Part shown: positions 15,323 to 37,740 of the stretch, piece by piece
Position numbering within the stretch: position 1 is the first letter of the stretch
Layout: every line of letters starts with the position of its first letter
From: Fervidobacterium sp.
Lineage (GTDB): Bacteria; Thermotogota; Thermotogae; Thermotogales; Fervidobacteriaceae
Length of the DNA: 64,000 nucleotides
Assembly: GCA_026419195.1 (NCBI GenBank)
Contig: JANZZV010000001.1
Span: 1 to 64,000, forward strand
Direction of reading: 5' to 3'
The notes under the pieces: model-generated
Seen by the model: the letters and a program-made list of their open reading frames with translations, nothing else
What the model was told of the DNA's origin: nothing
The model's database searches: none
Made by a program: the position numbers and the translations under genes

Positions 15323-16525
15323 TTATTCTTTTTCTTTGAATCCCAGAGCTTGAAGTGCTCTTTTCATATATTTGTTTTTCATGACAATGTCCCAGATCAA
15401 ACCTGTTTTGTAATTTTCTATCATAAGTAATGTTATGCCTTTATCTATTCCAATATATATCTCAGAAAACCAATTTTTGTCTAAGTTATATGCATCTTTA
15501 AATCCATACTTACCCCAAAGTTCTGGTACTTTCTCGTAGTAGTATTTTACAGTTTCTTCAACGACTTCAGGTACAAATACGATAGAACCAATCGCACCAC
15601 AAGGTGGTATAGTTCCATCAACATAATGCTGTGTGTTGTTGTTCCAAGACGGTGGTGCACCAAAGTCACCCCTGTAACCATCCGGAGAATCGCATGCTGT
15701 AAGGCCCCAAGAACATTCATGGAGAGTTTCAAATTGGCTGTGCATATCTTTGCAATACTCCCAGTTTGAAAGCGAAGCCTTAGTTGAGTTTTCGAACCAA
15801 TTTATATTGTTTTTGTCTACAATGTTTCTGAAATCTATCCATGCATGTGAAAACTGGTAAGTAAAAAGTGAGCCAGTGTAAGTATAGATAAGTTCGTAAT
15901 CTTTGTATCTTCCTACGTCACGTTGAAAGGAATCATAGACCGATGGATTCACAGGGTACGTTGGAGAAGCAACTGAGAGAAAATACATAATCAATTGTTC
16001 TGCATATCTGTCCCAGTTGCCCCAAAACCCTCTTTCGTAATCATAGCCCATGTAAAATTGGTTTTTAGAATTGTCAAGGTACCATTGAAAATTGACTTTT
16101 GAATATATTTCTTCAAAGAGTTGATACACTTCTCCACCAAAGTACTCGCCAACTGTTAGGGCGCCCATCAGGAAAAGTGCTGTATCTATGACCGATATTT
16201 CAGAGTGCCAAGCACGTTTTCCGTTACCCATATATACAAAATGTACAAAAAAACCTTCCTTTTGCTCAACATTATTGAGAAATGTCTCAAGAGTTTTCAG
16301 CGCTCGTTCTCTTCCTTCATTTTTGGTTATCCATCCGTTTTCAATTCCAACGGGTATACTACTTAAACCAAAACCTACAGATGCTATACTTGCTATATCT
16401 TTGTGTTTTGTGTTATCTATTATTAATCCATAGCCCTTTTCTGTTTGAGAAGTTTCGTTCCAGAAGAATTCAAATGATAACTTTTCTTCCAACTCTATTA
16501 TCTCCGAGGCTTTCAATTTAATCAT
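15323..16525 (-). CDS. cytoplasmic PF10091 glycoside hydrolase (GH144-like, putative beta-1,2-glucanase)
   Basis: This 400-residue protein has no signal peptide. It matches the 'glycoamylase-like' PF10091 fold throughout: KGYGLIIDN, ASVGFGLSSIPVGIENGWIT, the SEISVIDTALFLMGAL segment, FTYQFSHAWIDFRN, SWGLTACDSPDGYRG and GTIPPCGAIGSIVF. PF10091 includes the endo-beta-1,2-glucanases of GH144 and the transglycosylation domain of cyclic beta-1,2-glucan synthase (GH189); an alpha/alpha barrel is expected. It is the last gene of the 12-gene operon, 9 bp after its secreted paralogue. A cytoplasmic copy would shorten imported oligosaccharides. The start is uncertain: ATG 16525 directly abuts AAAGG and a TTG 9 bases later is possible. 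Substrate is inferred. Confidence 0.8.
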   Translation of the reverse strand: MIKLKASEIIELEEKLSFEFFWNETSQTEKGYGLIIDNTKHKDIASIASVGFGLSSIPVGIENGWITKNEGRERALKTLETFLNNVEQKEGFFVHFVYMGNGKRAWHSEISVIDTALFLMGALTVGEYFGGEVYQLFEEIYSKVNFQWYLDNSKNQFYMGYDYERGFWGNWDRYAEQLIMYFLSVASPTYPVNPSVYDSFQRDVGRYKDYELIYTYTGSLFTYQFSHAWIDFRNIVDKNNINWFENSTKASLSNWEYCKDMHSQFETLHECSWGLTACDSPDGYRGDFGAPPSWNNNTQHYVDGTIPPCGAIGSIVFVPEVVEETVKYYYEKVPELWGKYGFKDAYNLDKNWFSEIYIGIDKGITLLMIENYKTGLIWDIVMKNKYMKRALQALGFKEKE

Positions 16526-16534
16526 CCTTTCATA

Positions 16535-17791
16535 CTATTTTTTATATACGAATCCCAAATGCTTCAAACCATTCTGTATGTAATCAATACTCATGAATAT
16601 TCTCCATACTATTTCGTTTTTGTAATTCGCTAACATCAGCAGACTTATACCTTTGTCTATTCCTATGTAGTCACTTGCAAACCAACTTATGTCAAGATTA
16701 AATGAGTCCTTTAATCCGTACTTATCAACTAACGCAGGCAACTTGTAGTAGTTCTCAATAGCCCATGTTGATTCTTTGGGGGTAAACACGATGGAACCTA
16801 TGGCACCTGATGGCGCAAGTGTACCGTCTATTTGGTGAGCGGAATTGTTGTTTCCAGATGGAGGTGTACCAAGTAGCCCATTGTAGCCTTTTGGTGTGTC
16901 ACAAGCTGTAACTCCCCAGCCAATTGTAAAACTTTTATATTTTCCCTTATTATCTTGACAATAATAGTAATTTGCTAAACTTGCAAGTACAGAGTTTTGA
17001 TACCAGTTTGTTCCAAGTTTATCGTACCAATGCCTGAAATCTATCCAGGCGTGAGAATATTGGTAAGTAAAAAGGGAACCAAACCAGGAGTGTATGAACT
17101 TTTCGGTTTTATAGCTTCCATAGTTTCTTGTGAAAGAGTAATACACTGTCGAGTCAATTCTGTATTTTTTGTTTGGTGTACCAGCTGCTAGAATATACAA
17201 CATAAGTTGTTCGGCATAAAAATCCCAGTATCCTTGGAAGCCCTTTTCAGGATAGTAAGCCATGTAAAATTGGTTCCTTGCTTGGTTGATCATTTTGTTC
17301 CAATCTACTCGTTCATACAGTTTTTTCGCCAATTCCCAGGCTTGTCCTCCGAAGTATTTTCCGGCGGTGAGTACACCACACATGAGGATTGTTGTATCTA
17401 TTGTTGATACTTCACTATTCCATATTCTCTTGCCGGTGTTTATATCCAAAAAATGGTAGAAAAAACCATGGAAATGATCAATATTCAACAATGTTTTTAG
17501 TGTGTTTATCACTCGTTTCTCACCTTGCTCTTTCGTGATCCATCCTTCCTCTACTCCGATTACGATAGCAGTCAATCCAAAACCTGTTGCCGCTATACTT
17601 GCAATTGTGGGATTCCCAGGGTACCTATCTCTCACTAACCCGTAACCAGGGCTTTTTTCGTCAGTGTTGGTTTGATCCCAAAAGTACATGAATGATCTTG
17701 TGTATTCTTTTTGAAGGACTTCGTTAAGTTTGTTGATGCCAAACGAGAGTATTACAATAACTAACATTAATAAGCTTAGCGTCCTTTTCAT
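16535..17791 (-). CDS. secreted PF10091 glycoside hydrolase (GH144-like, putative endo-beta-1,2-glucanase)
   Basis: The 418-residue product starts at ATG 17791 after AAAGGAG and has a signal peptide (MKRTLSLLMLVIVILSFG). The rest is a PF10091 domain: YGLVRDRYPGNP, AATGFGLTAIVIGVEEGWIT, NSEVSTIDTTILMCGVLTAG, FTYQYSHAWIDFRHWYD, GWGVTACDTPKGYNG and GTLAPSGAIGSIVFTP. It is a paralogue of the next gene. Outside the cell it would cut a polymer into pieces for the two binding proteins encoded upstream in the operon. GH144 founders act on beta-1,2-glucan, which is why I infer that substrate. GH189-like activity or another beta-glucan cannot be excluded. Confidence 0.82.
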   Translation of the reverse strand: MKRTLSLLMLVIVILSFGINKLNEVLQKEYTRSFMYFWDQTNTDEKSPGYGLVRDRYPGNPTIASIAATGFGLTAIVIGVEEGWITKEQGEKRVINTLKTLLNIDHFHGFFYHFLDINTGKRIWNSEVSTIDTTILMCGVLTAGKYFGGQAWELAKKLYERVDWNKMINQARNQFYMAYYPEKGFQGYWDFYAEQLMLYILAAGTPNKKYRIDSTVYYSFTRNYGSYKTEKFIHSWFGSLFTYQYSHAWIDFRHWYDKLGTNWYQNSVLASLANYYYCQDNKGKYKSFTIGWGVTACDTPKGYNGLLGTPPSGNNNSAHQIDGTLAPSGAIGSIVFTPKESTWAIENYYKLPALVDKYGLKDSFNLDISWFASDYIGIDKGISLLMLANYKNEIVWRIFMSIDYIQNGLKHLGFVYKK

Positions 17792-17805
17792 GATTTTTCT
17801 CCTTT

Positions 17806-18723
17806 CTATTCTCCAGTTATTCCTGTTCTGTCTATACTTTCAATAAACCAGTCTTGAGCAAAGAAATATATTATTAGCAAAGGAAGTATCGACAGCAAAG
17901 TACCTGCCATTACAATAGCTTCGTTGAGACTTCTACCTGATTGCATTCCAGGCAACGATTGATAGATCCTTTGGAATGTATCTTCAAAACGTTGCAGTTG
18001 TAGTGGGAGAGTAGTCCATTTTTCACCAAGATAAAGCGCTGTAATAACTGTGTCATTCCAGTACCATACGAGTGAAAATAAGAAAGATATTAAGTAAGCA
18101 GGTCCAGCTGAAGGAGCAGCGATTTTGTAAAATACTTTAAACGTTGATGCACCGTCTATTTTTGCAGCTTCTTCAAGAGACTTTGGAAACATGTTGAAAA
18201 ATTGATAAAATATTATGATAAAGATAGCACTTCTAATTCCCTGTACGAAAGTTGCTGGTAATACAAGCGACCACAAACTCCCGAGTAATCCCATATCTTT
18301 AAATGTTAAAAATTGAGGAATCATGGTCACTTGCGATGGTATTATGAACGTTGCTATTGCAATGGAAAATAGAAATTTCTTCCCTGGAAACCTAAATCTT
18401 GAAAACCCATAACCTACTACGGAAGCTGACAAAGTTTGGAACAGTGCAGGAATAGTTGTAATAACAATTGTTTGAGTTAATGTCTTTGCATAATCTAAAA
18501 CTTTAACAGCATCTTTATAGTTTCCCGCGTACAATTTCGTTGGAACCCATTTTACAAGTGGGTTCACAAGATCAGAAGTGTCCATAAAGCTGTATGAAAT
18601 CATGAAGATTATCGGATAAATGAATACAAATCCTACAAGCAAAAGTAAAAAATATACACTGGCTACTTCAATTGAATCTTTGGTTTTCTTACGGATTTTA
18701 TAAATGTCAAACTTTTTAAACAT
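17806..18723 (-). CDS. CUT1 sugar ABC permease, MalG type (pair B)
   Basis: This is a 305-residue membrane protein with six helices and the EAA loop LEEAAKIDGASTFKVFYKIAAP. MalG-type signs are YPIIFMISYSFMDTSD near the N-terminus and the terminal WFIESIDRTGITGE. It has an extended N-terminal cytoplasmic segment (residues 1-20) rich in Lys. It follows its MalF-type partner by 15 bp. In this operon it forms the second of two permease pairs, separated from the first by the NHL-YIP1 and DUF5696 genes. The substrate is presumably a beta-glucan oligosaccharide. Confidence 0.9.
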   Translation of the reverse strand: MFKKFDIYKIRKKTKDSIEVASVYFLLLLVGFVFIYPIIFMISYSFMDTSDLVNPLVKWVPTKLYAGNYKDAVKVLDYAKTLTQTIVITTIPALFQTLSASVVGYGFSRFRFPGKKFLFSIAIATFIIPSQVTMIPQFLTFKDMGLLGSLWSLVLPATFVQGIRSAIFIIIFYQFFNMFPKSLEEAAKIDGASTFKVFYKIAAPSAGPAYLISFLFSLVWYWNDTVITALYLGEKWTTLPLQLQRFEDTFQRIYQSLPGMQSGRSLNEAIVMAGTLLSILPLLIIYFFAQDWFIESIDRTGITGE

Positions 18724-18738
18724 GGCATAGTCACCTAC

Positions 18739-19605
18739 CTACTTTTTAATCACTCTCTTTCCGTAAATAACGCCTATAATCGCAAATACACCTATTACAA
18801 GTAACATAGCCAAGAAATATATCCAAGATAGAGCAGAAGCATATCCAAGGCCTCTTTCTGGTCTGTACATGTCTACAAGTATCTTTTGGATAATCGGATT
18901 GGTTGCAAAGGTAGACACAGTAACGATTGTGTACACAACGTTTACAAATGTGAGTGGTGTTAGTACAGGTAAAGTTATTTTCCATAATATCTGCCATTTT
19001 GAAGCTCCATCTATTTTTGCTGCTTCATACATGCTTTTGTCAATTTTCTGCAAACCTGCAAGGTAAATAAGGATTTGCACACCAGAGAACCAAAGTATCA
19101 TTATGAAACCGGATACAAACATATCGATTGCTTTCGAAAGTAATGCGGGTAGATTTGCTTGGATGTCTTTTATTAGTTGAAAATTGTAAAGTCCTTCAAA
19201 TGTCATTGCACCTTTGCTTAGCAACTTGTTGAAAACAGGTCCACTTGCAATCACAACTGGAAGAAAGTAAATTGTTCTAAACAATGCTCTACCTTTGATG
19301 TTTATATTCAACAGCAAAGCCATTATCATCGAAAATGAAATTATTATAGGAACATAAACTATTATTTGGATGAAGTAATCAACCAAGAGCTGTGGATACG
19401 TAACATCTGTCAAAAAGGCATCTTTATAGTTTTTCGTACCTACGAAAAACATTCTAACTCCTTCTGCTGTAACCTTTACTTCGTTTAGACTAAAAGTGAA
19501 AGTTTTAATTAACGGTATGAGTGTAAAAAGAAGAAATCCAATAATCCATGGTGAAATAAAAATAAGGCCATTTATAGCTTCTCTCGTACGAAGTTTTATT
19601 TTCAT
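18739..19605 (-). CDS. CUT1 sugar ABC permease, MalF type (pair B)
   Basis: The 288-residue permease has six predicted helices, the MalF-type opening NGLIFISPWIIGFLLFTLIPL and the EAA loop YEAAKIDGASKWQILWKITLP. Its ATG overlaps the stop of the DUF5696 gene (TAATG), which points to translational coupling. The segment around residues 125-160 (KLLSKGAMTFEGLYNF) is longer than in many MalF proteins of this size. It pairs with the MalG-type permease just downstream. Together they would serve one of the operon's two solute-binding proteins; which one is not clear. Confidence 0.9.
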   Translation of the reverse strand: MKIKLRTREAINGLIFISPWIIGFLLFTLIPLIKTFTFSLNEVKVTAEGVRMFFVGTKNYKDAFLTDVTYPQLLVDYFIQIIVYVPIIISFSMIMALLLNINIKGRALFRTIYFLPVVIASGPVFNKLLSKGAMTFEGLYNFQLIKDIQANLPALLSKAIDMFVSGFIMILWFSGVQILIYLAGLQKIDKSMYEAAKIDGASKWQILWKITLPVLTPLTFVNVVYTIVTVSTFATNPIIQKILVDMYRPERGLGYASALSWIYFLAMLLVIGVFAIIGVIYGKRVIKK

Positions 19606-21734
19606 TACTGCTCACCTCTGATGATTTTCCAAGAGACACCAGAAATTTCATGATTCTTATACGTTATTGTAGACGAATTATAGTTAAATATAATTGATAC
19701 ATTGTTTTCGTAGTCCACAATGTAAACATTTTCGTATAATTTAGTGCGCTTTATTGGTCTATTTTTTCCCAAGATATTTTTAATGTTTTTATACTCAAGG
19801 TAGGACTTTTTGATTTCTTCTCGCCAGTCGTTGAATTTAGTTGATATAAGATGTTGAGAGTTTGTGTCGACAAGTTCTTTGGAACTTTCCCATGTTAAGT
19901 AGAAACTTGGCATAACACCGTATTCTATGCACTTCAGTAGTTGCAATCGATAATCAGCAGAAAGATTTATAGGCTTTGAAAACACAGTTCGAAAGTTGCT
20001 TAACACAAAAGGTACTATGGGAAAAACATCGTTTTCTATTTCATAACCTGAATTTTCAAGTGTCAGGTCTGCTATCATGTATGAATTCTTTAAGAGATAC
20101 CAATTCGAACCGTAAATAATTGGTTTTTCAAACAGACCGATAAGCTTTTCAAATAGATTTTTGGTCTTGGACCTTTCCAGGTTCTTTGTTGAGTAGAGCA
20201 TTTCTCCAATTGTTCCCAATGCAAGATTACTGATACCAAATCTTTTGAATTTTTGTTTTTCCTCTGTAGCTATCTTACTTACCAAGATAGGGTCAGTTAA
20301 GAAATTTTCTTCTCTTTCGATAAGCTGCTCGAGTTTGTTTTGTGCTACTATTAGTCTCCTTGCAAATTTTGAGATTTTTGGGAATTTTACGTAATCAACA
20401 TATATATAGTCATCTGCAATTTTCTCAAGACTGTTTATTATTTTTTGTTCAAATGGTAAATGGTATGGTGAATTTCTCGAATATCCATCTTTGCTGTAAC
20501 CTCTGAGTACATAAACAACATTGTCCAATGTGTGTGAGAGTTCGTTTTTTATTTTCTCAAGTTGTTCTTGTGTGGTCATCTTAACCAGAGTATAACCAAA
20601 CGCTGTCTTTTTTGCTTCTGACATGAGGACGTCAATTTTAAATATCGGTTCGGTAGAATTTTTGCTCGATATTTGCTCAGCGTACTCAGAAATAAATTTG
20701 TTTGCCAATGTATATTCATTTGAATCAGATAAGAAGTAATATCTGATGTGTGGTTTGACTGGATTCATATTCTCTTGTGGTATGGTTATTCCTTGTCCCT
20801 GCTTGTTTAATAGCTTTTTATGTATATCTCGAAATACAAACCGCCCCGATAGCCAGTTATAAGGCGTTATTATACCACTTTTGTATGCATTTATCTCTAC
20901 GTATTCCTCAGAGTTCTTGAATATAGCTAAAAGACCATTTTGATTATATAAAATTCCATACATCGGTAAGACATAGGATGAAGGTTCTTTGATATTTCTA
21001 AAATATGTTTGGGGTATAACTTCTCTAAACCCAATGTCTTCACCATAGATCCTCATTTTGAATGGTGCAGTTGCCGTGCTTACCTTTGAGAGTTCGACAA
21101 TTGCACCTACTCCGTCTGCAAGTATAAAACGCCCATCTGCCAAACCTTTTGAACCACCTAAGTATGGATATATGAATAATCCCATAACTTTGTATGTACT
21201 TTCTTTTATATCTTTTACCACCACATCAGCTGAATCATTATTAAAAGACAAAATAAGTCTAAGAAAGATGTCCACGTTTCTAAACTTAACAGCAAATGTG
21301 AGAGAATTTTTCTCTTCTTTTTCCAATTTGATATCCGCATCTTTTGATGAATAAAGACGTTTAACGCCGCCGACTTCGTCGTAAAATTCAACAACTAAAG
21401 CGGAGTTAAAAAACATTCTCCACGTAGTGTTTATTTCACTGTCTTCATTTTCTAACGCTGATTTCCATACGAATCCACTCTTCTTATCTTCAACTGTGAA
21501 ATTCATCGTCTTGGTGTCAACATTTGTTCTTATTGCTTGGGTTTCAAATGTTTTACCGTACTTAGGAGTTACAAACTGATATGGTGAGTCGTCAAGTTTC
21601 TTATAAACCATTGATGTGCTCTGTTCTGGTACATTTTTTATCCAGATAGTGAATGTAATTATTATGGAAAGGATAAATAGGAACTTTATTATTAAAAAAT
21701 ACAGTCTTGTCAAATATCTATTTTGTCCTTGCAC
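19605..21734 (-). CDS. membrane-anchored DUF5696-type protein
   Basis: The 709-residue protein starts at a GTG with GAGGAG 10 bases upstream and overlaps the end of the NHL-YIP1 gene by 17 bp. One hydrophobic helix (residues about 11-28) should anchor it, leaving a large domain outside. The N-terminal half (about 45-330) looks like a beta-rich domain (FTVEDKKSGFVWKSA, WRMFFNSALVVEFYD, PYLGGSKGLADGRFIL). The C-terminal half (about 345-690) alternates helices and strands as in a glycosidase-like barrel but I see no sure catalytic motif. Its family (DUF5696, recalled) occurs with YIP1 proteins, large binding proteins and permeases in Clostridia and Bacilli. A sugar-processing or substrate-handing role is inference only. 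Confidence 0.65.
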   Translation of the reverse strand: MQGQNRYLTRLYFLIIKFLFILSIIITFTIWIKNVPEQSTSMVYKKLDDSPYQFVTPKYGKTFETQAIRTNVDTKTMNFTVEDKKSGFVWKSALENEDSEINTTWRMFFNSALVVEFYDEVGGVKRLYSSKDADIKLEKEEKNSLTFAVKFRNVDIFLRLILSFNNDSADVVVKDIKESTYKVMGLFIYPYLGGSKGLADGRFILADGVGAIVELSKVSTATAPFKMRIYGEDIGFREVIPQTYFRNIKEPSSYVLPMYGILYNQNGLLAIFKNSEEYVEINAYKSGIITPYNWLSGRFVFRDIHKKLLNKQGQGITIPQENMNPVKPHIRYYFLSDSNEYTLANKFISEYAEQISSKNSTEPIFKIDVLMSEAKKTAFGYTLVKMTTQEQLEKIKNELSHTLDNVVYVLRGYSKDGYSRNSPYHLPFEQKIINSLEKIADDYIYVDYVKFPKISKFARRLIVAQNKLEQLIEREENFLTDPILVSKIATEEKQKFKRFGISNLALGTIGEMLYSTKNLERSKTKNLFEKLIGLFEKPIIYGSNWYLLKNSYMIADLTLENSGYEIENDVFPIVPFVLSNFRTVFSKPINLSADYRLQLLKCIEYGVMPSFYLTWESSKELVDTNSQHLISTKFNDWREEIKKSYLEYKNIKNILGKNRPIKRTKLYENVYIVDYENNVSIIFNYNSSTITYKNHEISGVSWKIIRGEQ

Positions 21735-23730: not shown

Positions 23731-23758
23731 AAAAGCACTCCTTGACAAATTAAGACTA

Positions 23759-24656: not shown

Positions 24657-25544
24657 TCAATCGCGTTCTAAGAAAAGTGCCCAAACGAACTTGGAAGAAA
24701 TCCAGATCATAACTAACAAAACAACTGAGATCGCGGCTGCATAGCCCATTTCGTACCTCATGAATCCAAAATCTTCAATGTGGTTTACTATCAGTTGTCC
24801 AGCATACTGTGGAGTTGGATTTGAACCAGAAAGCATAACACCTATGTAACCAGCTTGGAATGTTGAAACTACAGACATAACAGCTCCGAATAGCATTTGT
24901 GGTTTCATCAAAGGAATCGTAATATAGAATATTTCTTGCCACCTCTTCGAAATCCCGTCTATGTAGCCAGCCTCATAGATCTCTGGATCAGTGTTCAACA
25001 CCCCCGCAAGCATTGCAAGAAATCCAACTCCCATGCTGCTCCATATTGTGACTATAACCATCGTTGGAAAGAGAAATTTTGGAGATTGCAACCATTGAAT
25101 TGGTTGATCTATGATTCCCAAATTCAGGAGTAAACTGTTTAAATATCCAGACTTGTCGCCACTAAAAATTGTGAGCCATATAACTTGCATAGCGACACCT
25201 ACGGTCATAGACGGTGAATAGATTATAAGGGCTAAAATGGTTCTTGGAATTCTCGGAATTTGCGCAAGCATCCAGGCAAGTATAAATGCTAAAAAATAAC
25301 CGATGGGTCCAACTATGATTGCAAACTTTATTGTGTTTGGTAACACATGCTGCATGAATACGTTATCGGTTGTGAATAGTGTTATATAATTTTTCAAACC
25401 TATGAATTTTGGAAATTGGATAGTGTTAAAATTAGTGAATGACAAGAGTATTGCTAACACAATTGGAACTACTATGAATGTAGAAAACAAAACAACGTAA
25501 GGTGAAAGAAATGTTATTATCCATTTTCTGTCATATTTTTTCAC
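24657..25544 (-). CDS. CUT1 sugar ABC permease, MalF type (pair A)
   Basis: The 295-residue permease starts at a GTG with GGAAGGTG upstream. It has six helices, the opening [20 protein letters not shown] and a divergent EAA loop ([22 protein letters not shown]), where Ala-Ala is Ala-Gly. It is 17 bp downstream of the 939-residue binding protein gene. The close link suggests that protein as its donor. The EAA variation may reflect a special ATPase contact, though such changes occur in the family. Confidence 0.9.
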
Positions 25545-29719: not shown

Positions 29720-29797
29720 ACCTTTTCCCTCCCTTTGTAATAGTGTGGGTGATTTTTTGGCAAACGAAAAAAGATTGACCTAAACTGTAATTAAGTT

Positions 29798-32179
29798 CTA
29801 CTTATTTGTACGACCGAGTATAACTTCAACTTTGTGTGTATTACCATCTTTCAAAATAGGTATCCTATCAACTTCCTTTCCATCAAATATAAGCGCTTTC
29901 ACACCATAACTTACATTTTCAGGATTTTTCACTTCAAATAAATATGTTGTGTTATCAAATACTCTTTTGTACTTAAAACCATTCCAATGAGCTGGAATTA
30001 CGGGATCAATATCTATGTATCCGTAGTTTGGTCTTATCCCAAGTATCCAGTGTGTTGCAATTCTCTGAAGCCACTGCGCGGAGCCTGTGTACCAGGTCCA
30101 ACCACCACGACCGTAATGTGGTGAAGTTGGACCGTCGGAGTTGCCGCATGTTACATAAGGCTCTGCCCAATATTTGTCAATGTCGTAGCTTCTATAAGGT
30201 GGACATATACCTTTATAGGCTTTATACATTGCGTCAACATCCTTCATTAAAGCAAATGCCCAAACAGCCCACGTTGCTGCATGAGTGTAAACACCTCCGT
30301 TTTCTCTTAAACCAGGAGCGTAACGAGTTATGTAACCTATGTCCTTTTGTGGTTTAGTGTAAGCTGGATACAGTAACAAAGCACCATAATCTTTAAGTAA
30401 ATATTTCTTGACTGATTCCATTGCTTTATGTTTTCTTTGTTCATCTGTAATGTTACTTATAACAGCCCAAACCTGAGCATTTAAGAATATTTGCCCTTCT
30501 TCATTCTTCTTTGAACCAAGTTCTTCTCCGTTGTCTTTCGTAGCTCTTATAAACCAATCTCCATCCCATGCGTATTTGTTAACAGATTCTTTCAAGGTTT
30601 CTATTACATCTTTGCATTTCTTTGCGAATCTAAGATCACCTTTTTGTTCGATTATTGGGATGAAATCGTTAAGCAATTTGTATATAAAGTGAGCAAGCCA
30701 TATGCTTTCACCTTTCCAATCCGTACCAACAGCATTTAGACCATCATTCCAATCATGTTCACCTATCAATGGTAAACCTCTTGGCGAAAACCTCTTGAAT
30801 GACTTCTCGATTGCACGTTTACAATGCTCATACAAAGTTGCCTCTGTACCATCTAAGAATGGTACAACTTCATCAAGAATTGAATAGTCCAAAGTTTCTT
30901 TGATGTACTCTTGCGTTATAAAGGGTAACCACAACAAATCATCTGAACAATGAGTCCTTGGACCACCACCGCGAATGGTAAACCACCAATGTAACACATC
31001 ACCTTCTTGAAATTGATGTGCAGCATGCAAAAGTATTTGTTTTTTCGCGAGCTCAGGTTTAAGTGCAAAAAAAATCTGGGCATCTTGGAGTTGATCTCTG
31101 AATCCATAACCAGCTGAGACTTGGTAGTAGCCTGATTTTGCCCATATTCTTCCTGATATTGCTTGATACTTCAACCAATAGTTCGTCATGATGTTCAAGC
31201 CTTCGTCTGGTGTTTCAACTAATTCTTTTTCAAGCATATCCATCCAAAATACTTTGACATTTTCCAATTCGTCCCTTGCAGTGTTGACATCTGTATATTT
31301 TTTAGAAAGCTCAAACGGATCTTCTTCACCTATCTTTGCAGCTCCTATTGTAAAAACAATATCTTTGCTTTCACCAGGTGCGAGTTCAATTTCAACTTGC
31401 AAAGAGGCACAAGCATCACCGAATCTATCACATTTTGTTTCCAATATCTTACTTTTCATCGCTCTTGGGCGTTCCTCACTGCCATACATCCCAATGAAAC
31501 TCTCCTTATCACATGTATAGGATTTTACTGGAACATTAACACTGTGAAAAGCTACGTGATCCCAATCTGTATTATTCCACCTTCCCTTTTCATCAGGAAA
31601 CTGACCAAGATATTTTCTCACGAATATCGTATTATTTTCGAAGGAAGGAACTATAAACAGTTTATGAAATTCTCTGTGTTCGTCTGGAAAATTTCCAAGT
31701 ACCCATTCAAAATAAGACGTGACATCAAGTTTTCTTACCTTATTATCCTCGTTCCTCAATGTCAACCAGGCAAATTCTACTGGCGCATTTATGGACACAA
31801 ACACCTTTAGCTCGGAGTATACATCATGTACTTTGTGCTTATATATGGTGTAACCTATACCATGTACAACTTCATAAAGTTGGTAATCTGCTTTAACTGG
31901 TTTCCATGAAGCTGACCAAAATTTACCACTTTCAATATCTCTGATATAGTAATACTTTCCCCAATTATCTTTGATTAGATCTTGATACAATCTGGTAATC
32001 CTGTTTTGGCCCGCGTTGCCACGCCATGAATAACCGCTTCCTGTGTGTGATGCTATTATTGAATAGTCACCATTACTGATCACATTAACCCATGGACGAG
32101 GTGTGTATGGATTGGTTATCACATACTCTTTTCCGTCTTTAGTAAAATAGCCATACTTGCTTTCGAATAACTTATCCAT
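29798..32179 (-). CDS. GH94 beta-glucan oligosaccharide phosphorylase
   Basis: This 793-residue cytoplasmic enzyme matches GH94 end to end. It has the N-terminal beta-sandwich (RPWVNVISNGDYSII, GSGYSWRGNAGQNRIT). The alpha/alpha barrel has GYGFRDQLQD (about 357-366), HWWF...GGGPRTHCSDDLLWLP (about 397-419) and EHDWNDGLN (475-482), whose Asp pair includes the expected general acid. GH94 enzymes split beta-glucosides with phosphate, giving glucose 1-phosphate; they act on cellobiose, cellodextrin, laminaribiose, chitobiose, sophorose or beta-1,2-oligoglucans. The length fits the cellobiose-phosphorylase size class, and the GLPLIG..DWNDG..GES pattern is shared with cyclic beta-1,2-glucan synthase domains. 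Its start overlaps the GH35 stop by 8 bp. A beta-1,2 substrate is inferred from the PF10091 genes. Confidence 0.88.
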   Translation of the reverse strand: MDKLFESKYGYFTKDGKEYVITNPYTPRPWVNVISNGDYSIIASHTGSGYSWRGNAGQNRITRLYQDLIKDNWGKYYYIRDIESGKFWSASWKPVKADYQLYEVVHGIGYTIYKHKVHDVYSELKVFVSINAPVEFAWLTLRNEDNKVRKLDVTSYFEWVLGNFPDEHREFHKLFIVPSFENNTIFVRKYLGQFPDEKGRWNNTDWDHVAFHSVNVPVKSYTCDKESFIGMYGSEERPRAMKSKILETKCDRFGDACASLQVEIELAPGESKDIVFTIGAAKIGEEDPFELSKKYTDVNTARDELENVKVFWMDMLEKELVETPDEGLNIMTNYWLKYQAISGRIWAKSGYYQVSAGYGFRDQLQDAQIFFALKPELAKKQILLHAAHQFQEGDVLHWWFTIRGGGPRTHCSDDLLWLPFITQEYIKETLDYSILDEVVPFLDGTEATLYEHCKRAIEKSFKRFSPRGLPLIGEHDWNDGLNAVGTDWKGESIWLAHFIYKLLNDFIPIIEQKGDLRFAKKCKDVIETLKESVNKYAWDGDWFIRATKDNGEELGSKKNEEGQIFLNAQVWAVISNITDEQRKHKAMESVKKYLLKDYGALLLYPAYTKPQKDIGYITRYAPGLRENGGVYTHAATWAVWAFALMKDVDAMYKAYKGICPPYRSYDIDKYWAEPYVTCGNSDGPTSPHYGRGGWTWYTGSAQWLQRIATHWILGIRPNYGYIDIDPVIPAHWNGFKYKRVFDNTTYLFEVKNPENVSYGVKALIFDGKEVDRIPILKDGNTHKVEVILGRTNK

Positions 32180-34274
32180 GATGTATAGTCACTCCCCTTT
32201 TCTCAATTTTGCTTCGTTCAAATACAAAAATTTTACCACTTCTTGAGTGAATAACAGCTGTTGTAATATAAGAACCACCAATAATAATCTTAGCCTTTTT
32301 GTCGTAATCATCGTAATTGTTAACAAAAAAAATATCTTCCATATCCGATCTTCTCATATATCCGTCCAAAAATCCGTCTTCGGAGACTAATTCAAAAGAT
32401 CTCTGTATGTTCATGATATTGCATATACTCTCTATAACCCTCAGTTTGTATTCTCTTTCGAGTTCTATACCACAGCCGAGCACTAATACAGCCCCATTTC
32501 TATAATCTTTTTTGAAAGCACATACATCTCCTTCTCTGCTGATGCCATACACCTTACATTCATTGTCTAATTTGTAAGTTTCTAAATTATACGCATTTAC
32601 TTCTGTATCAAATATCTTTGCAAAGCCACCACCCTGGCTATTTACATTCGATATCCCGAGCATTTTAAGGATATTTGTACATTCATTACCAAATTCGTCA
32701 AAGAACGGAACCTCAGGGAAAAGAATCAATTTTCCACCACTTTCAACATATCTTACCAGTTTTTGCTGCACGACTCTTGGCATAAACTTCAATGAAAAAA
32801 CCCACAGTGAATTGTACTTACATGGATCGATATTTTCACCGTTTTCAAGATCAATAAACTTGAAGTTGTAGTTTAGCAATTTAAGGCCACGAAGAATTCC
32901 ATCAAAAACTGATATGTCTCTTTTGAAAGAAATTTCCGAAATGTTCATACCATGTTCCAAAAAATGCTCTGTTGAGTAATACGACGGTATAAAACCAAAA
33001 AAAGTGTCGAACACAGGTTTTGAGCGTAAAAGTTTTTCCTCAATATCCCTTATCTCAGCAATGAATTCCTTCAAAACAAAGTAACTCCTTCTCAGTTCTC
33101 CGTTTGATCCAATCGGTGCTTGCCAATCGTGGTAACTTCCCATCAAACCATAGTCGTCTGGATTGACACCACCAGCGAACATGTAGTAATTTATTCCGTT
33201 CATGCCTTGTCCAATACACAATCTCGATGTAAGTTCCAGTGTTGATGGTAAAAGTTTTGGTCGGTCGGTTTGAAACCCGCTTTGGAACTCAGCTGAAAAA
33301 AGTGGTTGATCAACATTCTGAATGGCATACATCAATGAATTAGCAATTGTGAGGTCAGAAAAATTTTCATGGACTATATTTCCTATGTAGTAATCACCAG
33401 AAAGGATAGAATTTTCTATATTTTTTGCTTTCATAAGTTGTGAAACACCTACTACATAGTTCTTACCCCTTTTTGCATACTCTACCGTGTCAAAACCATG
33501 GATATTGACTATTACTGGAACATCTATTCCAAACTTACGTATGTAACTTGAAAGTGTGTCTAAATATTTAGCATAGTAAAGTCTCAAGAATTTATGATAC
33601 ATAATTGTCATTCTCTGCGAAAATTTTTTTCCATAGGTCCAAGTTTTTAACTCCTCACACAGTTCTTTATCGTTATCTTTCAAAAATTCACTGAATCGAT
33701 TTAACGTATCTTCGTTATAATCACCATGTCCAGTTATCCATTGCAACATTCCTACTTCATTATCTATCTGAATCAGAACAACGTTAAACTCCTTAGCTAT
33801 ACTAAAAACGTTGTCGTACCATCTTTCAACATACCTAAGAAAATCTGGGTGTAGATAAGAAAAAACTCTTGTTGGGTGTAATTTGCCATCCAAAGTTTTT
33901 GCAATGGCATGTGGAATCTTTTCGTAAATCCACGCTGGCAAACCCTCGTTTTTGAGCTCAGACATAATATACGGACCTGGTTTAAATATGATATTAAACC
34001 CTAACAATTCAGCGATTTTCATAAAACCTAATAAATTTCTTCTTTCATCAGTTTTACCATGAAAATCGAAAGTTCCATCTTCTATTTCATGCCAGAACCA
34101 GGGAACATAAAAACTAATTGTATCAATCCCTGCATTTTTAATTTTTTCTAGCCTATCTTCCCAGTCTTTTTGTGGTAATCTGAAATAATGTATCTCAGCA
34201 GAAAATATAAATTCTTTCTTTCCATCGATAATGAATACGCCATTGTTAAAAGTCACCTTTTTCAATTTCTTCAC
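32172..34274 (-). CDS. GH35 family glycosidase (first gene of the large operon)
   Basis: The 700-residue cytoplasmic protein opens with the GH35 barrel: FSAEIHYFRLPQKDWEDRL, SFYVPWFWHE, FKPGPYIMSELKNEGLPAW. The acid/base Glu173 lies in LIQIDNEVG and the likely nucleophile Glu329 in FSAEFQSGF. A GH42-like middle domain and a small beta domain complete it. Textbook GH35 enzymes are beta-galactosidases, with archaeal exo-glucosaminidases related; a GH35 beta-1,2-glucosyltransferase from Ignavibacterium has also been reported (recalled). The last fits the operon best. It leads the 12-gene operon behind a LacI operator. A paralogue lies at 35629-37740. Specificity is open. Confidence 0.82.
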   Translation of the reverse strand: MKKLKKVTFNNGVFIIDGKKEFIFSAEIHYFRLPQKDWEDRLEKIKNAGIDTISFYVPWFWHEIEDGTFDFHGKTDERRNLLGFMKIAELLGFNIIFKPGPYIMSELKNEGLPAWIYEKIPHAIAKTLDGKLHPTRVFSYLHPDFLRYVERWYDNVFSIAKEFNVVLIQIDNEVGMLQWITGHGDYNEDTLNRFSEFLKDNDKELCEELKTWTYGKKFSQRMTIMYHKFLRLYYAKYLDTLSSYIRKFGIDVPVIVNIHGFDTVEYAKRGKNYVVGVSQLMKAKNIENSILSGDYYIGNIVHENFSDLTIANSLMYAIQNVDQPLFSAEFQSGFQTDRPKLLPSTLELTSRLCIGQGMNGINYYMFAGGVNPDDYGLMGSYHDWQAPIGSNGELRRSYFVLKEFIAEIRDIEEKLLRSKPVFDTFFGFIPSYYSTEHFLEHGMNISEISFKRDISVFDGILRGLKLLNYNFKFIDLENGENIDPCKYNSLWVFSLKFMPRVVQQKLVRYVESGGKLILFPEVPFFDEFGNECTNILKMLGISNVNSQGGGFAKIFDTEVNAYNLETYKLDNECKVYGISREGDVCAFKKDYRNGAVLVLGCGIELEREYKLRVIESICNIMNIQRSFELVSEDGFLDGYMRRSDMEDIFFVNNYDDYDKKAKIIIGGSYITTAVIHSRSGKIFVFERSKIEKRGVTIHHG

Positions 34275-34477
34275 CTTCTTAAAATTCTTTCAGATGTAAC
34301 AGTTAGGGTTTATTGAAATTTTCGGTGAAACGTTTCAATTCATTTCAGTATATTTCTCATAATATCACACGGCTTTACAAAAAACGAAATAGCAATTCTT
34401 TCTATTTTTGTCAATGCAAACCATTCTTTGTTCACAATTTCAATCTTTCTCATCTAATTAACCAATTTTTTGTTTTT
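34275..34477 (-). promoter_or_regulatory. control region of the 12-gene operon
   Basis: This 203-bp gap separates the lacI stop from the GH35 start. It holds a perfect LacI palindrome (see next entry) and a TATACT box (minus strand, 34347-34352) ten bases upstream of it. I found no good -35 at the usual spacing; the nearest TTGTAA is 22 bases away. The layout suits repression by blocking early transcription. Confidence 0.5.
34326..34337. promoter_or_regulatory. LacI-family operator (perfect palindrome)
   Basis: TGAAACGTTTCA is a perfect 12-bp palindrome with the central CG typical of LacI-family operators. It lies 52 bp upstream of the first GH35 start codon. The lacI gene directly upstream is the obvious source of its repressor. 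Confidence 0.75.
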
Positions 34478-35479
34478 TTATATTAACTTCTTTGCTGATT
34501 CCCTTATTACAAGTTCTACGTCAAGCACAACGTTAGATAGTCCTTCGTTCTTATCTGTAAGTAAGCTTAGAAGTATATGTGCAGCTATCGAGCCAAGTTG
34601 GTACATTGGTCTGCGTACAGTTGTTAAGGTAGGATGAACGTAGGAAGCTAATTCGATATCATCGAAACCAACAATTGATATATCATCAGGCACAGAGATG
34701 TTAAATTCTTTAAAAGCCTTGAGAGCACCAATTGCCATCTCGTCGTTAGAACAAAACAGAGCGGTTGGAAGTTTCCTTTTCTTGTTTCTTTTAAGATAAC
34801 TTCTGATAATTTCATATCCGGATTCTTCAGTAAAATTTCCCTCGAATATCCAATTATCATTTACTTCAAGTTTGAGTTCACCCATAGCACGTGTAAATCC
34901 TCTGAACCTTTCACGGGCATCGAGAGAATCTTTTGAACCTTTCATAAATCCAATCTTTGAATGACCAAGTTCGTGTAGGTATTTGACTACTTCGTATGCA
35001 CCTTTTTCGTTGTTAACCCTTACACTTTTTACTCTTTGATCTTTTAAAGCTCTATCGAGTGTTACTATCTTGAATTGGTTTGCCCATTTGAGTATATTTT
35101 CATTCTTTACTGCTGGTGTCATGATGATAAGCCCACCAACTATGTCGGTTCTTAGAAATTTATCTACATCTTCTTTTCTATTTTCAAGGGTACAATATAT
35201 TAGTAAGTTGTATCCAAAAGAATGCAACACATCTTGAATCCCCCTGACAAGTGCGTCATAAAATGGTCCTTTTATTTCATGGACGACAAGTGCAACAAGA
35301 TCGTATTGTTGTCTTTTCAATCTCTTGGCAAAATTATTCGGTATGTAATTAAGCTCCTGAGCAGCTTTAAGCACCTTTTCCTTTGTTTCCTCACTTATCT
35401 TGCCTGTGTTGTTTAGTACATACGAAACCGTTGAGATTGAAACACCAGCACGCTTTGCCACATCTTTTATTGTTGCCAT
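34478..35479 (-). CDS. LacI-family transcriptional repressor
   Basis: The start is ATG 35479, 5 bases after GGGAGGAG; the open frame runs upstream but lacks a site. The 333-residue protein has the LacI HTH and hinge at residues 1-60 (ATIKDVAKRAGVSISTVSYVLNNTG, PNNFAKRLKR). The sensor domain follows, with RVNNEKGAYEVVKYLHELGH, FCSNDEMAIGALKAF and VGFDDIELASYVHPTLTTVRRP. It sits between the 12-gene operon and the divergent second GH35 gene. Matching palindromes in both flanking control regions suggest it represses the operon, itself and perhaps the second GH35 gene. The inducer is inferred to be an oligosaccharide of the imported glucan. Confidence 0.93.
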   Translation of the reverse strand: MATIKDVAKRAGVSISTVSYVLNNTGKISEETKEKVLKAAQELNYIPNNFAKRLKRQQYDLVALVVHEIKGPFYDALVRGIQDVLHSFGYNLLIYCTLENRKEDVDKFLRTDIVGGLIIMTPAVKNENILKWANQFKIVTLDRALKDQRVKSVRVNNEKGAYEVVKYLHELGHSKIGFMKGSKDSLDARERFRGFTRAMGELKLEVNDNWIFEGNFTEESGYEIIRSYLKRNKKRKLPTALFCSNDEMAIGALKAFKEFNISVPDDISIVGFDDIELASYVHPTLTTVRRPMYQLGSIAAHILLSLLTDKNEGLSNVVLDVELVIRESAKKLI

Positions 35480-35510
35480 TTTTACTCCTCCCCAAATCAT
35501 ATTCTTTAAC

Positions 35511-35522
35511 TTAAACGTTTCA
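35511..35522. promoter_or_regulatory. second LacI operator, one mismatch
   Basis: TTAAACGTTTCA differs by one base from the perfect palindrome at 34326-34337. It lies just downstream of the lacI -10 box, where bound repressor would block lacI transcription, and 107 bp before the divergent GH35 start. Confidence 0.68.
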
Positions 35523-35526
35523 TTAA

Positions 35527-35556
35527 ATTGTACCACAAAAATTTCAAAAATTTCAA
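35527..35556 (-). promoter_or_regulatory. lacI promoter
   Basis: On the minus strand TTGAAA (35551-35556) and TACAAT (35527-35532) are 18 bases apart, with the operator immediately after. A TATAAT box on the plus strand at 35579-35584 is the likely -10 of the divergent GH35 gene, though its -35 is weak. Confidence 0.6.
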
Positions 35557-35628
35557 TCAGATCGTGCCCAACAAGTTGTATAATATCTTGAGCGTCGGTG
35601 AATATATTTTTCGAAAGGAGGAATATTC

Positions 35629-37740
35629 ATGTTTGCGTGTAATTTCACAAAAGACCTTCTGATTTCGGCAGAAATTCATTATTTCAGATTATCTCCTGAA
35701 TGCTGGGAAGATAGAATAATGAAAGCAAAAGAAGCTGGTTGTAGTGTAATTTCTTCGTATATTCCATGGATTGTCCACGAGGAAATTGAAAAAGAATATT
35801 GTTTTGATGGATGGTATGATTTGAGGAAATTCTTAGAGTTGGTTGAAAGAAATGGCATGCAATTCATAGCTCGACCTGGACCTTTTGTGATGGCAGAGTT
35901 GAAAAATGAGGGAATACCTTTCTGGGTATATGAAAAATATCCACATCTTGTACCATTAACATGGGATGGAAAGAAAGTTGAAAATTCAACAATTGTGTAC
36001 AATCATCCAGATTTCTTGAAGGAAGTTAAACTCTGGTATCTTAAAGTAGCAAGCATTTTGAAACCTTTTGTTGATAATGGAGTTGTATGTGGGATTCAAA
36101 TTGACAATGAGATAGGAATGTTGCAGTGGATTAATAATACACCAGATCTCTCAGATTTTACACTTTCGAGATTTGTGGAATGGCTTGTTAAGAATTATGG
36201 AGAAGATCGATATGGTTTTCCTTTAGATTTTTCATCCACAACTTTCATGCGTTTGAGAAGTCCAGAAGAATATTTTCGTGATTTATTTATAAGCGATTAT
36301 TCGAAATTTATAAGAAAGGAATTTTCACTTTATGTCTCAAATTTGCTTGGATTTTTTCACGAATTTGGCATTGACACAAATTTTTTGCTAAATGTTCATG
36401 GAACAGCGGGTGGAAAGGCCCACACATTTCCCATAGGTATTTCGCAACTTGAGATTGCTTACAAAGAAAATGACGTAATTCCTACTACAGATGTTTATCT
36501 TGGTACGTTTTCTGTGAAGAATTTTCATGATTTGTGGAATATCAACGAAATAGTAAAGAGTACAAACAAAAAGACGTTGTACGGTTGTATGGAATTTGAA
36601 TGTGGAGATGGGAATTATGGAAACGATTATGGAGAAAGAATATTACCAGAAAGTATATTACATAAATTATTGTTATCAGCAATTCAAGGTAACAAGTTAA
36701 TTAATTACTACCTTTTTGCTGGAGGGATTAATTCGAAACTTAGAAGTAATGTCAAAGATGGAAACGGAAGAATAGGTTTTACAGGAGAACTTCATGGATT
36801 TGCAGCACCAGTGAAACCAGATGGGAAAACAAATTATTCGTTTGATTATCTCAAAAAGGGTAACGCGATACTTCGTGAATTTGAAATCTTGGGTTTGGAC
36901 TTCGTAAAATCATTTTTGGAGTATGATGATATCTATGTTGCCTATTTTACAGAATACTATGAGACAGAGTATTATTATAAAGATACTGCCAAAAAGGAAA
37001 ATATAGAATTCCATCGTGGGTATAATTTTTGGGATAGTTTCCTAAAAGGCTTACTTATGGCTGGTTTTAGGTATCGATTTTTAGACATGAAATACGAGTT
37101 ACCAGAGATAAATAAACTGCTGATTGTTCCGACTACAAAATACTTACCAAAGCATGGGCAAGAAAAGATCCTTGAATTCATTGACAATGGCGGAAAGGTG
37201 ATTTTGTATGGTGACCTGCCTGTTTACGATGAGTATGGTAGTAATTGTACTATACTAATAGATTACTTAAAAGTGAAACCAGGTAAGGAATACTTTTCCT
37301 CACATAAGTTTTTTCTTTCAATTTCACCGAGTTATGCATTTCCTTTTGCTGAGTTTCGTACAGACTGGGCAAGACAAATTATCCAAGATGAGGGTAATGC
37401 TTTACCGTTGGCCTTTGTTACCCAAAGTGATAGTACCTGTGGCTTGTATCTAAGGGATAGAAATACATTGTTACTAACAACCCACTTTAATTGCAACCCA
37501 GTGTTCTTCAAAATCCTGTTATCACTCATGGGTGTAGAACCTAAATGCGAAGTTATTGGGGAATATAAAGATGCGGAAACGGTTGTAGGTGTCTATCCAT
37601 TTCTTTTGTCAAATGACAGCCAATATCTGCTTATAATGAACATAGAACCAATAGATAAAACAGTAACTGTGAAGCTACCTAATGTTGTTATTAACAATTT
37701 AGAAATACCTAAAAATGGGGTAAAGTTGATCAAATTGTGA
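35629..37740 (+). CDS. second GH35 family glycosidase, divergent from lacI
   Basis: The 703-residue protein starts at ATG 35629 after AAAGGAGGAA. It is a paralogue of the operon's GH35 enzyme: ISAEIHYFRLSPECWEDRI, SSYIPWIVHE, ARPGPFVMAELKNEG, acid/base Glu161 in IQIDNEIG and likely nucleophile Glu322 in CMEFECG. There is no signal peptide. It lacks the first 15 residues of its paralogue and differs around the nucleophile, so its substrate may differ. It is monocistronic and lies divergently from lacI with an operator between them. A beta-galactosidase or beta-glucoside-acting function are both open. Confidence 0.82.
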   Translation: MFACNFTKDLLISAEIHYFRLSPECWEDRIMKAKEAGCSVISSYIPWIVHEEIEKEYCFDGWYDLRKFLELVERNGMQFIARPGPFVMAELKNEGIPFWVYEKYPHLVPLTWDGKKVENSTIVYNHPDFLKEVKLWYLKVASILKPFVDNGVVCGIQIDNEIGMLQWINNTPDLSDFTLSRFVEWLVKNYGEDRYGFPLDFSSTTFMRLRSPEEYFRDLFISDYSKFIRKEFSLYVSNLLGFFHEFGIDTNFLLNVHGTAGGKAHTFPIGISQLEIAYKENDVIPTTDVYLGTFSVKNFHDLWNINEIVKSTNKKTLYGCMEFECGDGNYGNDYGERILPESILHKLLLSAIQGNKLINYYLFAGGINSKLRSNVKDGNGRIGFTGELHGFAAPVKPDGKTNYSFDYLKKGNAILREFEILGLDFVKSFLEYDDIYVAYFTEYYETEYYYKDTAKKENIEFHRGYNFWDSFLKGLLMAGFRYRFLDMKYELPEINKLLIVPTTKYLPKHGQEKILEFIDNGGKVILYGDLPVYDEYGSNCTILIDYLKVKPGKEYFSSHKFFLSISPSYAFPFAEFRTDWARQIIQDEGNALPLAFVTQSDSTCGLYLRDRNTLLLTTHFNCNPVFFKILLSLMGVEPKCEVIGEYKDAETVVGVYPFLLSNDSQYLLIMNIEPIDKTVTVKLPNVVINNLEIPKNGVKLIKL

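Follow-up and report, generated by a model that had tools for sequence, protein, structure and literature searches.

The operon described here lies in a stretch of 64,000 nucleotides from Fervidobacterium sp. (assembly GCA_026419195.1, contig JANZZV010000001.1, positions 1 to 64,000), hereafter called the window, which is part of a 2.06 Mb assembly of 118 contigs. Between positions 15323 and 34274 twelve open reading frames (ORFs) are placed on the minus strand. Their gene content points to the utilisation of beta-1,2-glucan, and the middle eight genes, which encode two solute-binding proteins (SBPs), two pairs of ATP-binding cassette (ABC) permeases, an NHL-YIP1 protein and a DUF5696 protein, form a cassette that recurs in other genomes. 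The features of the locus are as follows.

15323-16525, minus strand: SGLa, PF10091/GH144 beta-1,2-glucanase homologue without leader, predicted cytosolic (Pfam 261 bits; XcSGL, 8xul, 206 bits)
16535-17791, minus strand: SGLb, PF10091/GH144 beta-1,2-glucanase homologue with hydrophobic leader, predicted outside the cytoplasm (Pfam 193 bits; 8xul 214 bits)
17806-18723, minus strand: ABC permease B1 (PF00528; cassette position)
18739-19605, minus strand: ABC permease B2 (PF00528; cassette position)
19605-21734, minus strand: DUF5696 protein, N-terminal membrane helix and GH129-like domain, catalysis uncertain (Pfam 308 bits; model; fold search)
21718-23748, minus strand: NHL-YIP1 protein, NHL beta-propeller, TPR-like linker and YIP1-type membrane domain (Pfam NHL; alignment members; model)
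23759-24628, minus strand: ABC permease A2 (PF00528; cassette position)
24657-25544, minus strand: ABC permease A1, best conserved cassette member (PF00528; identity to the genome's own second cassette)
25562-28381, minus strand: giant SBP, about 540 N-terminal residues without clear family, then SBP_bac_1 (Pfam)
28415-29719, minus strand: small SBP, cassette member most tied to linkage type (PDB 22hh 254 bits; linkage comparison)
29798-32179, minus strand: GH94 (Pfam; 8rf9 541 bits, cellobiose phosphorylase 480 bits, 5h3z 29 bits)
32172-34274, minus strand: GH35 of the IaSGT (beta-1,2-glucosyltransferase) group, without leader (7vkw 319 bits; seven residues kept)
34326-34337, no strand assigned: candidate LacI operator, perfect palindrome
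34478-35536, minus strand: LacI-family regulator (Pfam)
35511-35522, no strand assigned: second candidate operator, one mismatch, at the lacI start facing the second GH35
35629-37740, plus strand: second GH35 of the IaSGT group, divergent (7vkx 170 bits, next family 101 bits; seven residues kept)

In the order of transcription the operon encodes GH35 (700 amino acids), GH94 (793), the small SBP (434), the giant SBP (939), permeases A1 and A2, NHL-YIP1 (676), DUF5696 (709), permeases B2 and B1, and the PF10091 proteins SGLb (418) and SGLa (400). Neighbouring genes are separated by 9, 14, 15, 10, 28, 17, 33 and 78 bp or overlap by 1, 17 and 8 bp, and the original prediction, which spoke of twelve genes joined by gaps under 80 bp or overlaps, was exact on this point. 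Its family names were likewise backed by Pfam (PF10091 261 and 193 bits; GH94 405 bits for the catalytic domain PF17167 and 279 bits for the supersandwich domain PF06165; GH35 137 and 129 bits; DUF5696 308 bits), and both of its binding proteins are SBPs, but one of them is unusual in carrying some 540 residues ahead of the SBP domain. The LacI gene lies 203 bp upstream of the operon. The gene order is not due to chance, because the same order recurs in other phyla.

Both PF10091 proteins are closest to the GH144 beta-1,2-glucanases, as had been proposed. XcSGL (GH144) is the best PDB match of SGLa and SGLb alike, followed by CpSGL with 147 and 138 bits, respectively. The GH193 enzyme PgSGL3 scored far lower (33 and 36 bits), the GH189 domain of TiCGSTg matched SGLb only (20 bits), and the GH192 entry 8XUJ was absent from the PDB match lists of both proteins; for the GH194 enzyme the structure is only predicted (PMC12102758). 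The clan residues Glu211, Phe268 and Tyr330 of CpSGL, equivalent to Glu239, Phe286 and Tyr367 of XcSGL (PMC12102758), are kept in SGLa in the alignment with CpSGL and in SGLb in the alignments with 4gl3 and XcSGL, the Tyr column of the XcSGL alignment being ambiguous owing to an insertion.

The operon GH35 reached 319 bits against IaSGT, 208-222 bits against four archaeal GlmA-type chains and at most 113 bits against other beta-galactosidases. One of the four archaeal chains is deposited as exo-beta-D-glucosaminidase; the other three are deposited as beta-galactosidase, and we take them to be GlmA-type. The second GH35 scored 170 bits against IaSGT (7vkx), with the next family at 101 bits. All seven subsite -1 or catalytic residues of IaSGT, namely Tyr52, Glu102, Asn175, Glu176, Asn275, Glu343 and Tyr378 (PMC8861115), are kept in both GH35 proteins in the printed alignments, and the operon GH35 has Asn where glucosaminidases have Asp. 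Judged by these similarities, both proteins belong to the IaSGT beta-1,2-glucosyltransferase group.

The GH94 protein matched 8rf9 with 541 bits and the SOGP-type 5h3z with only 29 bits, and neither SOGP domain was found in it by Pfam, which does report both domains in a homologous locus (L068). The earlier assignment to a beta-1,2-oligoglucan enzyme thus holds in part: the GH94 family stands and points to beta-1,2-glucose, but the protein is not of the SOGP type.

The N-terminus of SGLa runs directly into the catalytic domain, while the translation of SGLb shows a leader. The proposal that the polymer is cut outside the cell is consistent with SGLb, but SGLa has no leader and looks cytosolic. 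Leaders were assigned by an in-house hydropathy rule or by eye, not by SignalP. The same split between SGLb and SGLa, with part of the calls made by eye, was seen in all seven judged loci among nine Thermotogota loci with both genes; the SGLa leader of the remaining two (L059 and L063) could not be judged. In six Bacillota loci (L066, L067, L069, L070, L112 and L140) the only SGL in the fetched stretch has no leader, and in six loci of Mycoplasmatota or Bacilli (L129, L134, L136, L139, L141 and L142) a GH16 with leader is paired with a GH16 without one. Because one endo-enzyme is predicted to be cytosolic, these data suggest the import of chains longer than exo-enzymes would require.

The distribution of the middle eight genes was followed by two routes. 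A profile search of 103 Thermotogota genomes with DUF5696 (PF18952) gave matches above the cut-off in 33 genomes, strong ones (at least 146 bits) in 25; the remaining matches were partial, about 25-35 bits, and fell on other proteins. Thirty loci around strong matches were read, with L020, L062, G067:C23 and G074:C63 left out. The second route, in which an alignment of the giant SBP was compared with genome contigs, found at least 592 stretches, at least 581 of them confirmed, and the best 80 were used. The order SBP, giant SBP, A1, A2, NHL, DUF5696, B2, B1 was called intact when profile searches of all frames placed the genes on one strand, foreign genes in between being allowed. It was intact in 65 of these 80 loci and in 23 of the 30 loci of the DUF5696 route. 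Twelve of the other 15 loci reach a contig end and three have split or fused frames (L128, L133 and L137), while six of the other seven in the DUF5696 set reach a contig end and one, L034, holds half a cassette. Five contigs are common to both sets (L060/L065, L037/L088, L042/L105, L044/L131 and L061/L121). The hosts belong to Bacillota, Chloroflexota, Mycoplasmatota and Thermotogota. A further locus, L064, is labelled Acidobacteriota and is almost identical to L058 from Thermotogota; it is probably a mislabelled or mis-binned contig.

The cassette may also be present in many copies. In the 18 genomes reached via loci, one to 14 DUF5696 matches per genome were counted, fragments included. In the Paenibacillus genome with 14 (P. 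thermotolerans), every DUF5696 gene has NHL, the giant SBP and permease pair B as neighbours; in two copies permease A2 went unrecognised, and in five NHL was split over two frames. The small SBP was recognised on the same strand in 11 copies, in three of these behind permease B1, and in one as a fragment only. Six more copies in three other genomes carry the same set except the small SBP. L034 lacks the SBPs and pair A and has a truncated NHL; the same genome also has an intact cassette (L035). In L050 a cassette that is intact in all other respects is interrupted, between its genes for DUF5696 and permease B2, by an RRXRR-HNH protein (10970-12340), which we take to be IscB-like.

Based on gene content and order, the middle eight genes are a conserved general cassette with no beta-1,2-glucan speciality. 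The possibility that NHL-YIP1 and DUF5696 are special to this substrate was rejected, as the second cassette of the same genome (L033) is accompanied by GH16 and GH3; the DUF5696 family also recurs beside GH30, GH66, GH38, GH29, GH26 and others. Accordingly, the two transporters, NHL-YIP1 and DUF5696 that had been assigned to beta-1,2-glucan are present here, but they form a cassette that stands with enzymes for other polysaccharides elsewhere. The statement that NHL-YIP1 and DUF5696 have no established role agrees with a literature search covering few subscription papers and no preprints, which found no paper on DUF5696 and, among the papers listed, no description of the YIP1/NHL/permease gene set; one of these, on Erwinia, contains the term 'YIP1 family protein'. 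The cassette is not named in the available parts of the B. weihaiensis and Paenibacillus JDR-2 papers. We are dealing with known enzyme and transporter families in an apparently undescribed, widespread eight-gene arrangement.

The enzymes beside the cassette change from locus to locus. Among the best 80 loci, SGL and/or GH94/SOGP was found in 40, GH16 in 18, GH30 in nine, GH161 in six, GH66 in three and none in 17, where classes overlap and truncated loci are counted; the 30 Thermotogota loci comprise 11 with SGL, 15 with GH16 (eight of them with GH161), two with GH30 and two with none. Labels were assigned from similarities found on either strand of the fetched stretch, and L136, whose beta-1,2 label comes from a weak GH94 match, more probably belongs to the beta-1,3 type. 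Copies in two Paenibacillus genomes extend the range to GH38, GH29, GH26, GH2, a GH30_2-type and an arabinofuranosidase-type enzyme. A pattern recurs: the beta-1,2 type of locus is marked by GH144 with GH94 or SOGP, and the beta-1,3 type by GH16 with GH161. A protein of 1041-1074 amino acids in the GH16 loci was considered as a new family and rejected, as it is GH161-type: it has no Pfam family, the member from L046 scores 880 bits against 9qqk, and the other members were assigned by similarity. Permease B1 of L068 is followed by a gene that Pfam identifies as SOGP, and L072 has its homologue; L192 combines the cassette with two SGL, GH35 and SOGP homologues. In L126 the neighbours of the cassette include proteins of the DUF4434, beta-helix and CBM35 types, with homologues in L130.

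The cassette member most tied to linkage is the small SBP. When the window protein was compared with the small SBP of the GH16 cassette in the same genome the score was 119 bits, which was also the mean over 12 Thermotogota GH16 cassettes, versus 372 bits against the beta-1,2 locus of Thermoanaerobacter (L122) and means of 331 and 239 bits against nine beta-1,2 loci of Bacillota and 13 of Chloroflexota, respectively. Permeases B track linkage weakly and not in all comparisons (B1: 269 bits within the own genome, 260 bits to Thermoanaerobacter), and permease A1 is 67% identical between the window and the second cassette of the same genome. The PDB matches of the small SBP are led by 22hh (254 bits), followed by 5f7v (Lmo0181) with 53 bits. 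The idea that 22hh is the structure of TdCIBP was wrong, since the entries of the TdCIBP paper are 9XF5 and 9XFU, and a literature search found no publication as the source of 22hh.

Phylogenetic trees were built on the giant-SBP domain together with NHL, with FastTree for 96 rows and with IQ-TREE for 56 chosen rows, the latter omitting long-branch rows such as L102, L124, L127, L128 and L133. Enzyme labels needed 15 changes on the FastTree tree against a shuffled mean of 42.7 and nine on the IQ-TREE tree against 22.9 (0 of 200 shuffles as low in either case); with unlabelled rows removed from the 56-row tree, labels needed four changes and phyla seven, figures to be read bearing in mind that near-copies cluster with themselves and that labels differ in their number of states. 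In the 56-row tree the window falls in a beta-1,2 group (support 84) and the GH16 cassette of its own genome in a separate clade (support 100). FastTree gathers most beta-1,2 cassettes, whereas IQ-TREE does not make beta-1,2 one clade (five changes), and the link of the window group to Chloroflexota has a support of only 84. That the phylogeny of the cassette follows enzyme type is a trend in these sequences rather than proof. L038, from the genus of the window and with a single SGL, groups with L122 from Thermoanaerobacter, which suggests horizontal transfer; L043 has the same gene content as L038 and is not among the tree rows.

The model of DUF5696 (pLDDT 86.5, pTM 0.83) shows one membrane helix followed by a whole-length fold that is GH129-like. 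The Foldseek search gave GH129 with E 4.2e-29, and the comparison with GH129 gave a VIA Z of 27.1 with a root mean square deviation of 3.8 A over 564 aligned residues, the next group having Z of about 17; the profile also has a weak sequence match to ZgGH129 (E 2.4e-4). Within the barrel (359-655) no acidic residue is identical in at least 85% of 98 sequences. An acidic residue (Glu/Asp) occupies position 373 in 97 of the 98 (50/47) and position 604 in 96 (56/40). At position 567, Glu is found in 27 of the 29 Thermotogota sequences and in 44 of 98 overall, and it is nearly invariant in a 16-row alignment. DUF5696 is probably a glycan-holding pseudo-enzyme, a reading weakened by the conservation of Glu567 in Thermotogota. 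Its proposal as a linkage-specific receptor is unsupported, given scores that are alike regardless of group. A second protein with a weak match to the barrel part of the profile (514 amino acid frame) was found at G000:C4:199098-199427; such matches are common in many Thermotogota and in T. maritima, and perhaps represent GH36-like enzymes.

In NHL-YIP1 the YIP1 match of the window protein is weak (E 0.0015, 18.9 bits, cut-off 28.6), but all 16 aligned members match YIP1 at E of at most 0.01 (best 1.9e-17), and 11 of the 16 match TPR_2. The model (pTM 0.63) contains an NHL propeller, identified by fold search, a TPR-like linker and a Yip1 membrane domain, and strongly conserved residues occur in both halves. 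An NHL profile search of the own genome gave 0 matches, though hmmscan finds the NHL repeats of the window protein, the short profile being too insensitive. The N-terminal part of the giant SBP matches no Pfam family except Golvesin_C in seven of 17 members (best E 9e-4). BPD_transp_1 permeases and an SBP_bac_1 binding protein mark a CUT1-type ABC importer by Pfam, and no ATPase gene is present in the cassette or operon. The genome, which is 97.66% complete, has one match to a MalK-type ATPase (PF17912, MalK OB domain) at C1:106496-106660, which may serve the transporter of the cassette.

The palindrome TGAAACGTTTCA lies upstream of the operon (34326), with a one-mismatch copy at the start of lacI (35511), and two exact copies occur in the 2.06 Mb genome. 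L064 and L065 carry it at both places, twice exact in L064 and once exact and once with one mismatch in L065, the exact copies including one upstream of GH35 in each. Thirteen other loci gave none or a single stray match; only L064 and L065 include the region. The palindrome is a candidate LacI operator. The number of promoter-like sites in the window is what chance would give (64 against an expected 73.2), and that of terminator-like sites is only slightly higher than chance (14 against 9.9, standard deviation 2.8).

Taken together, the locus is best read as an operon for the utilisation of beta-1,2-glucan that is built around a general cassette of eight genes for glycan import, a reading to which we assign a probability of roughly three in four on the basis of sequence comparison. 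The placement of the PF10091, GH35 and GH94 proteins in their subgroups, judged by pairwise bit scores and active-site residues in place of full family trees, came out for the beta-1,2-glucan of the original prediction. We infer the substrate, the length of the imported chains, the operator and the roles of NHL-YIP1 and DUF5696 as follows. Outside the cytoplasm, secreted GH144 would cut beta-1,2-glucan in its linear or cyclic form, and the small SBP would bind the beta-1,2-linked pieces and set the linkage specificity. Import of the pieces would fall to the giant SBP and both permease pairs, together with a shared ATPase of the MalK type whose gene lies elsewhere, with the membrane-anchored NHL-YIP1 and the GH129-like DUF5696 as hub, chain holder or channel partner. 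Cytosolic GH144 would shorten long chains, GH94 phosphorolysis would yield glucose 1-phosphate, and the GH35 enzymes would move or remove terminal beta-1,2-glucose. LacI would repress the gene set, perhaps via the TGAAACGTTTCA operator.

Several observations weigh against this reading or parts of it. The small SBP has 12 PDB matches, but no beta-1,2-glucan binder is named among them, and DUF5696 does not track linkage, with 201-233 bits against every group outside the genus. Among the enzymes, GH94 reaches 480 bits against cellobiose phosphorylase, and Arg349 of IaSGT, which binds the +1 glucose and is not conserved in many homologues according to the part of the paper available to us (PMC8861115), is replaced by Gln in the operon GH35. 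Both GH16 proteins carry leaders in L042, L044 and L045, and likewise in L105 and L131 from the same contigs as L042 and L044, so that long-chain import is not general. The other exact copy of TGAAACGTTTCA (C1:293944) lies among genes that resemble housekeeping genes by eye; when up to two mismatches are allowed the window shows no enrichment (8 copies against 6.3 expected), and when up to one is allowed the genome has 13 copies, fewer than the 24 of the reversed control. Finally, a GH144 homologue adjoins a beta-1,2-galactosidase GH35 in Bacteroides in the available part of PMC11739564, which means that GH144 genes alone do not exclude beta-1,2-galactan.

This last point bears on the possibility that the substrate is another beta-glycan (for example beta-1,2-galactan, a glucan of the cellobiose type or a natural product with beta-1,2-linked glucosyl groups) and that the enzymes have a shifted specificity. 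Besides the neighbourhood in Bacteroides, the variation of the +1 subsite among IaSGT homologues, described in the available part of PMC8861115, and the GH94 that is not SOGP would fit such a shift. We nevertheless consider it improbable, because GH144, GH35 and GH94 each independently indicate beta-1,2-glucose and the GH35 proteins retain the glucose-type subsite -1 of IaSGT (Asn175, Glu102). Another reading, also unlikely though less so, is that DUF5696 works as an active glycosidase, anchored in the membrane and shortening chains on the cell surface. Its whole-length GH129-like fold, the sequence match to ZgGH129 and the retention of Glu567 in Thermotogota speak for activity, but the absence of a conserved barrel acid over the 98 sequences, the divided Glu/Asp at positions 373 and 604, and the presence of the family beside enzymes for both alpha- and beta-linked glycans speak against it.

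The eight genes could encode a single machine, namely an ABC importer with two channels that takes up whole or long glycan chains and in which the NHL-YIP1 hub and the membrane-anchored pseudo-glycosidase DUF5696 would hold the chain and feed it to two permease pairs and two SBPs; this proposal is tentative and we regard it as rather doubtful. If true, this route would be distinct from both the Sus system and the import of oligosaccharides through a single channel, and the importer would be re-tooled for different linkages via the exchange of the small SBP and the enzymes. The alternative of two ordinary, separate CUT1 importers in one operon, for long and short pieces, with NHL-YIP1 and DUF5696 merely co-inherited surface proteins (sensor, adhesin or assembly factor), is a serious possibility, although we would not favour it outright. 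Each permease and SBP domain alone resembles an ordinary CUT1 part, DUF5696 evolves fast and without a linkage signal, and L034 has the truncated NHL, DUF5696 and pair B without the SBPs and pair A. Yet in 65 of the 80 best loci, across four phyla, NHL-YIP1 and DUF5696 keep their order and their place between the two permease pairs, which argues against two separate importers since an unneeded insert should sometimes be lost, and they stand beside permeases in all 14 copies of one genome.

The cassette of the beta-1,2-glucan operon may be a major route of polysaccharide uptake in Bacillota, Chloroflexota, Mycoplasmatota and Thermotogota. The enzyme families adjoining it are known for beta-1,2-, beta-1,3-, beta-1,6- and alpha-1,6-glucans, the linkages for GH30 and GH66 being deduced from the family. 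If confirmed, the cassette would flag unknown polysaccharide-utilisation loci, DUF5696 would gain a fold and a context, and the import of long or cyclic glucans in bacteria without a Sus system would become testable.

Two other loci were observed in the window. At 859-7652 a GntR-type regulator with a sugar-binding domain, a permease pair, a GH85 endo-beta-N-acetylglucosaminidase and an SBP perhaps serve an N-glycan type of uptake, and at 8345-12019 there is a row of a DsbD-like membrane protein, thioredoxin-like proteins and a pyridine nucleotide-disulphide reductase.

Compared with known systems, DUF5696 shares the whole-length fold of GH129 (ZgGH129, NagBb) but is membrane-anchored, is only 10-16% identical over the aligned part and has no strictly conserved barrel acid. 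The SOGP operon of Listeria innocua resembles the window in combining a GH94 phosphorylase with an ABC transporter whose SBP takes beta-1,2-glucooligosaccharides (PMC8861115, available part), and a shared ATPase has been hypothesised for loci like it (PMC6484121, available part). It differs in that its SOGP-type GH94 is remote from the window enzyme and that no eight-gene cassette is mentioned in the parts of these sources available to us; its binding protein is not named among the PDB matches of the window small SBP. The GH161 beta-1,3-glucan loci of Acholeplasma and Paenibacillus likewise have permeases mostly without ATPase beside GH161, GH16 and GH3, but there a permease pair without SBP stands next to a second transporter, and NHL-YIP1 and DUF5696 are unnamed in the available part of that paper (PMC6484121). 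These loci are perhaps halves of the same cassette, which may explain the permeases that lack an ATPase and SBP.

The uptake of cyclic isomaltooligosaccharides via TdCIBP is alike in extracellular processing, a CUT1-type SBP, the import of large or cyclic glucan and a cytosolic endo-enzyme, as far as the available part of the paper goes (PMC13084667). It is unlike the window in its alpha-1,6 linkage, and NHL, YIP1 and DUF have 0 occurrences in the main text (PMC13084667). Long-chain import, which the cytosolic endo-enzyme suggests here, has likewise been proposed for those compounds (PMC13084667). A close counterpart is the cluster of Ignavibacterium album around IaSGT (IALB_1185). Its GH94 is an SOGP homologue, unlike that of the window, GH3 is present and a TonB-dependent route is mentioned, and the available part of the paper has no mention of NHL-YIP1, DUF5696 or a doubled permease pair (PMC8861115). 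Like the window, it holds two GH144, a GH94, a GH35 of the same subgroup and an SBP (PMC8861115), and because the same enzyme set is clustered there with an SBP, the beta-1,2-glucan reading of the Fervidobacterium operon gains a precedent.

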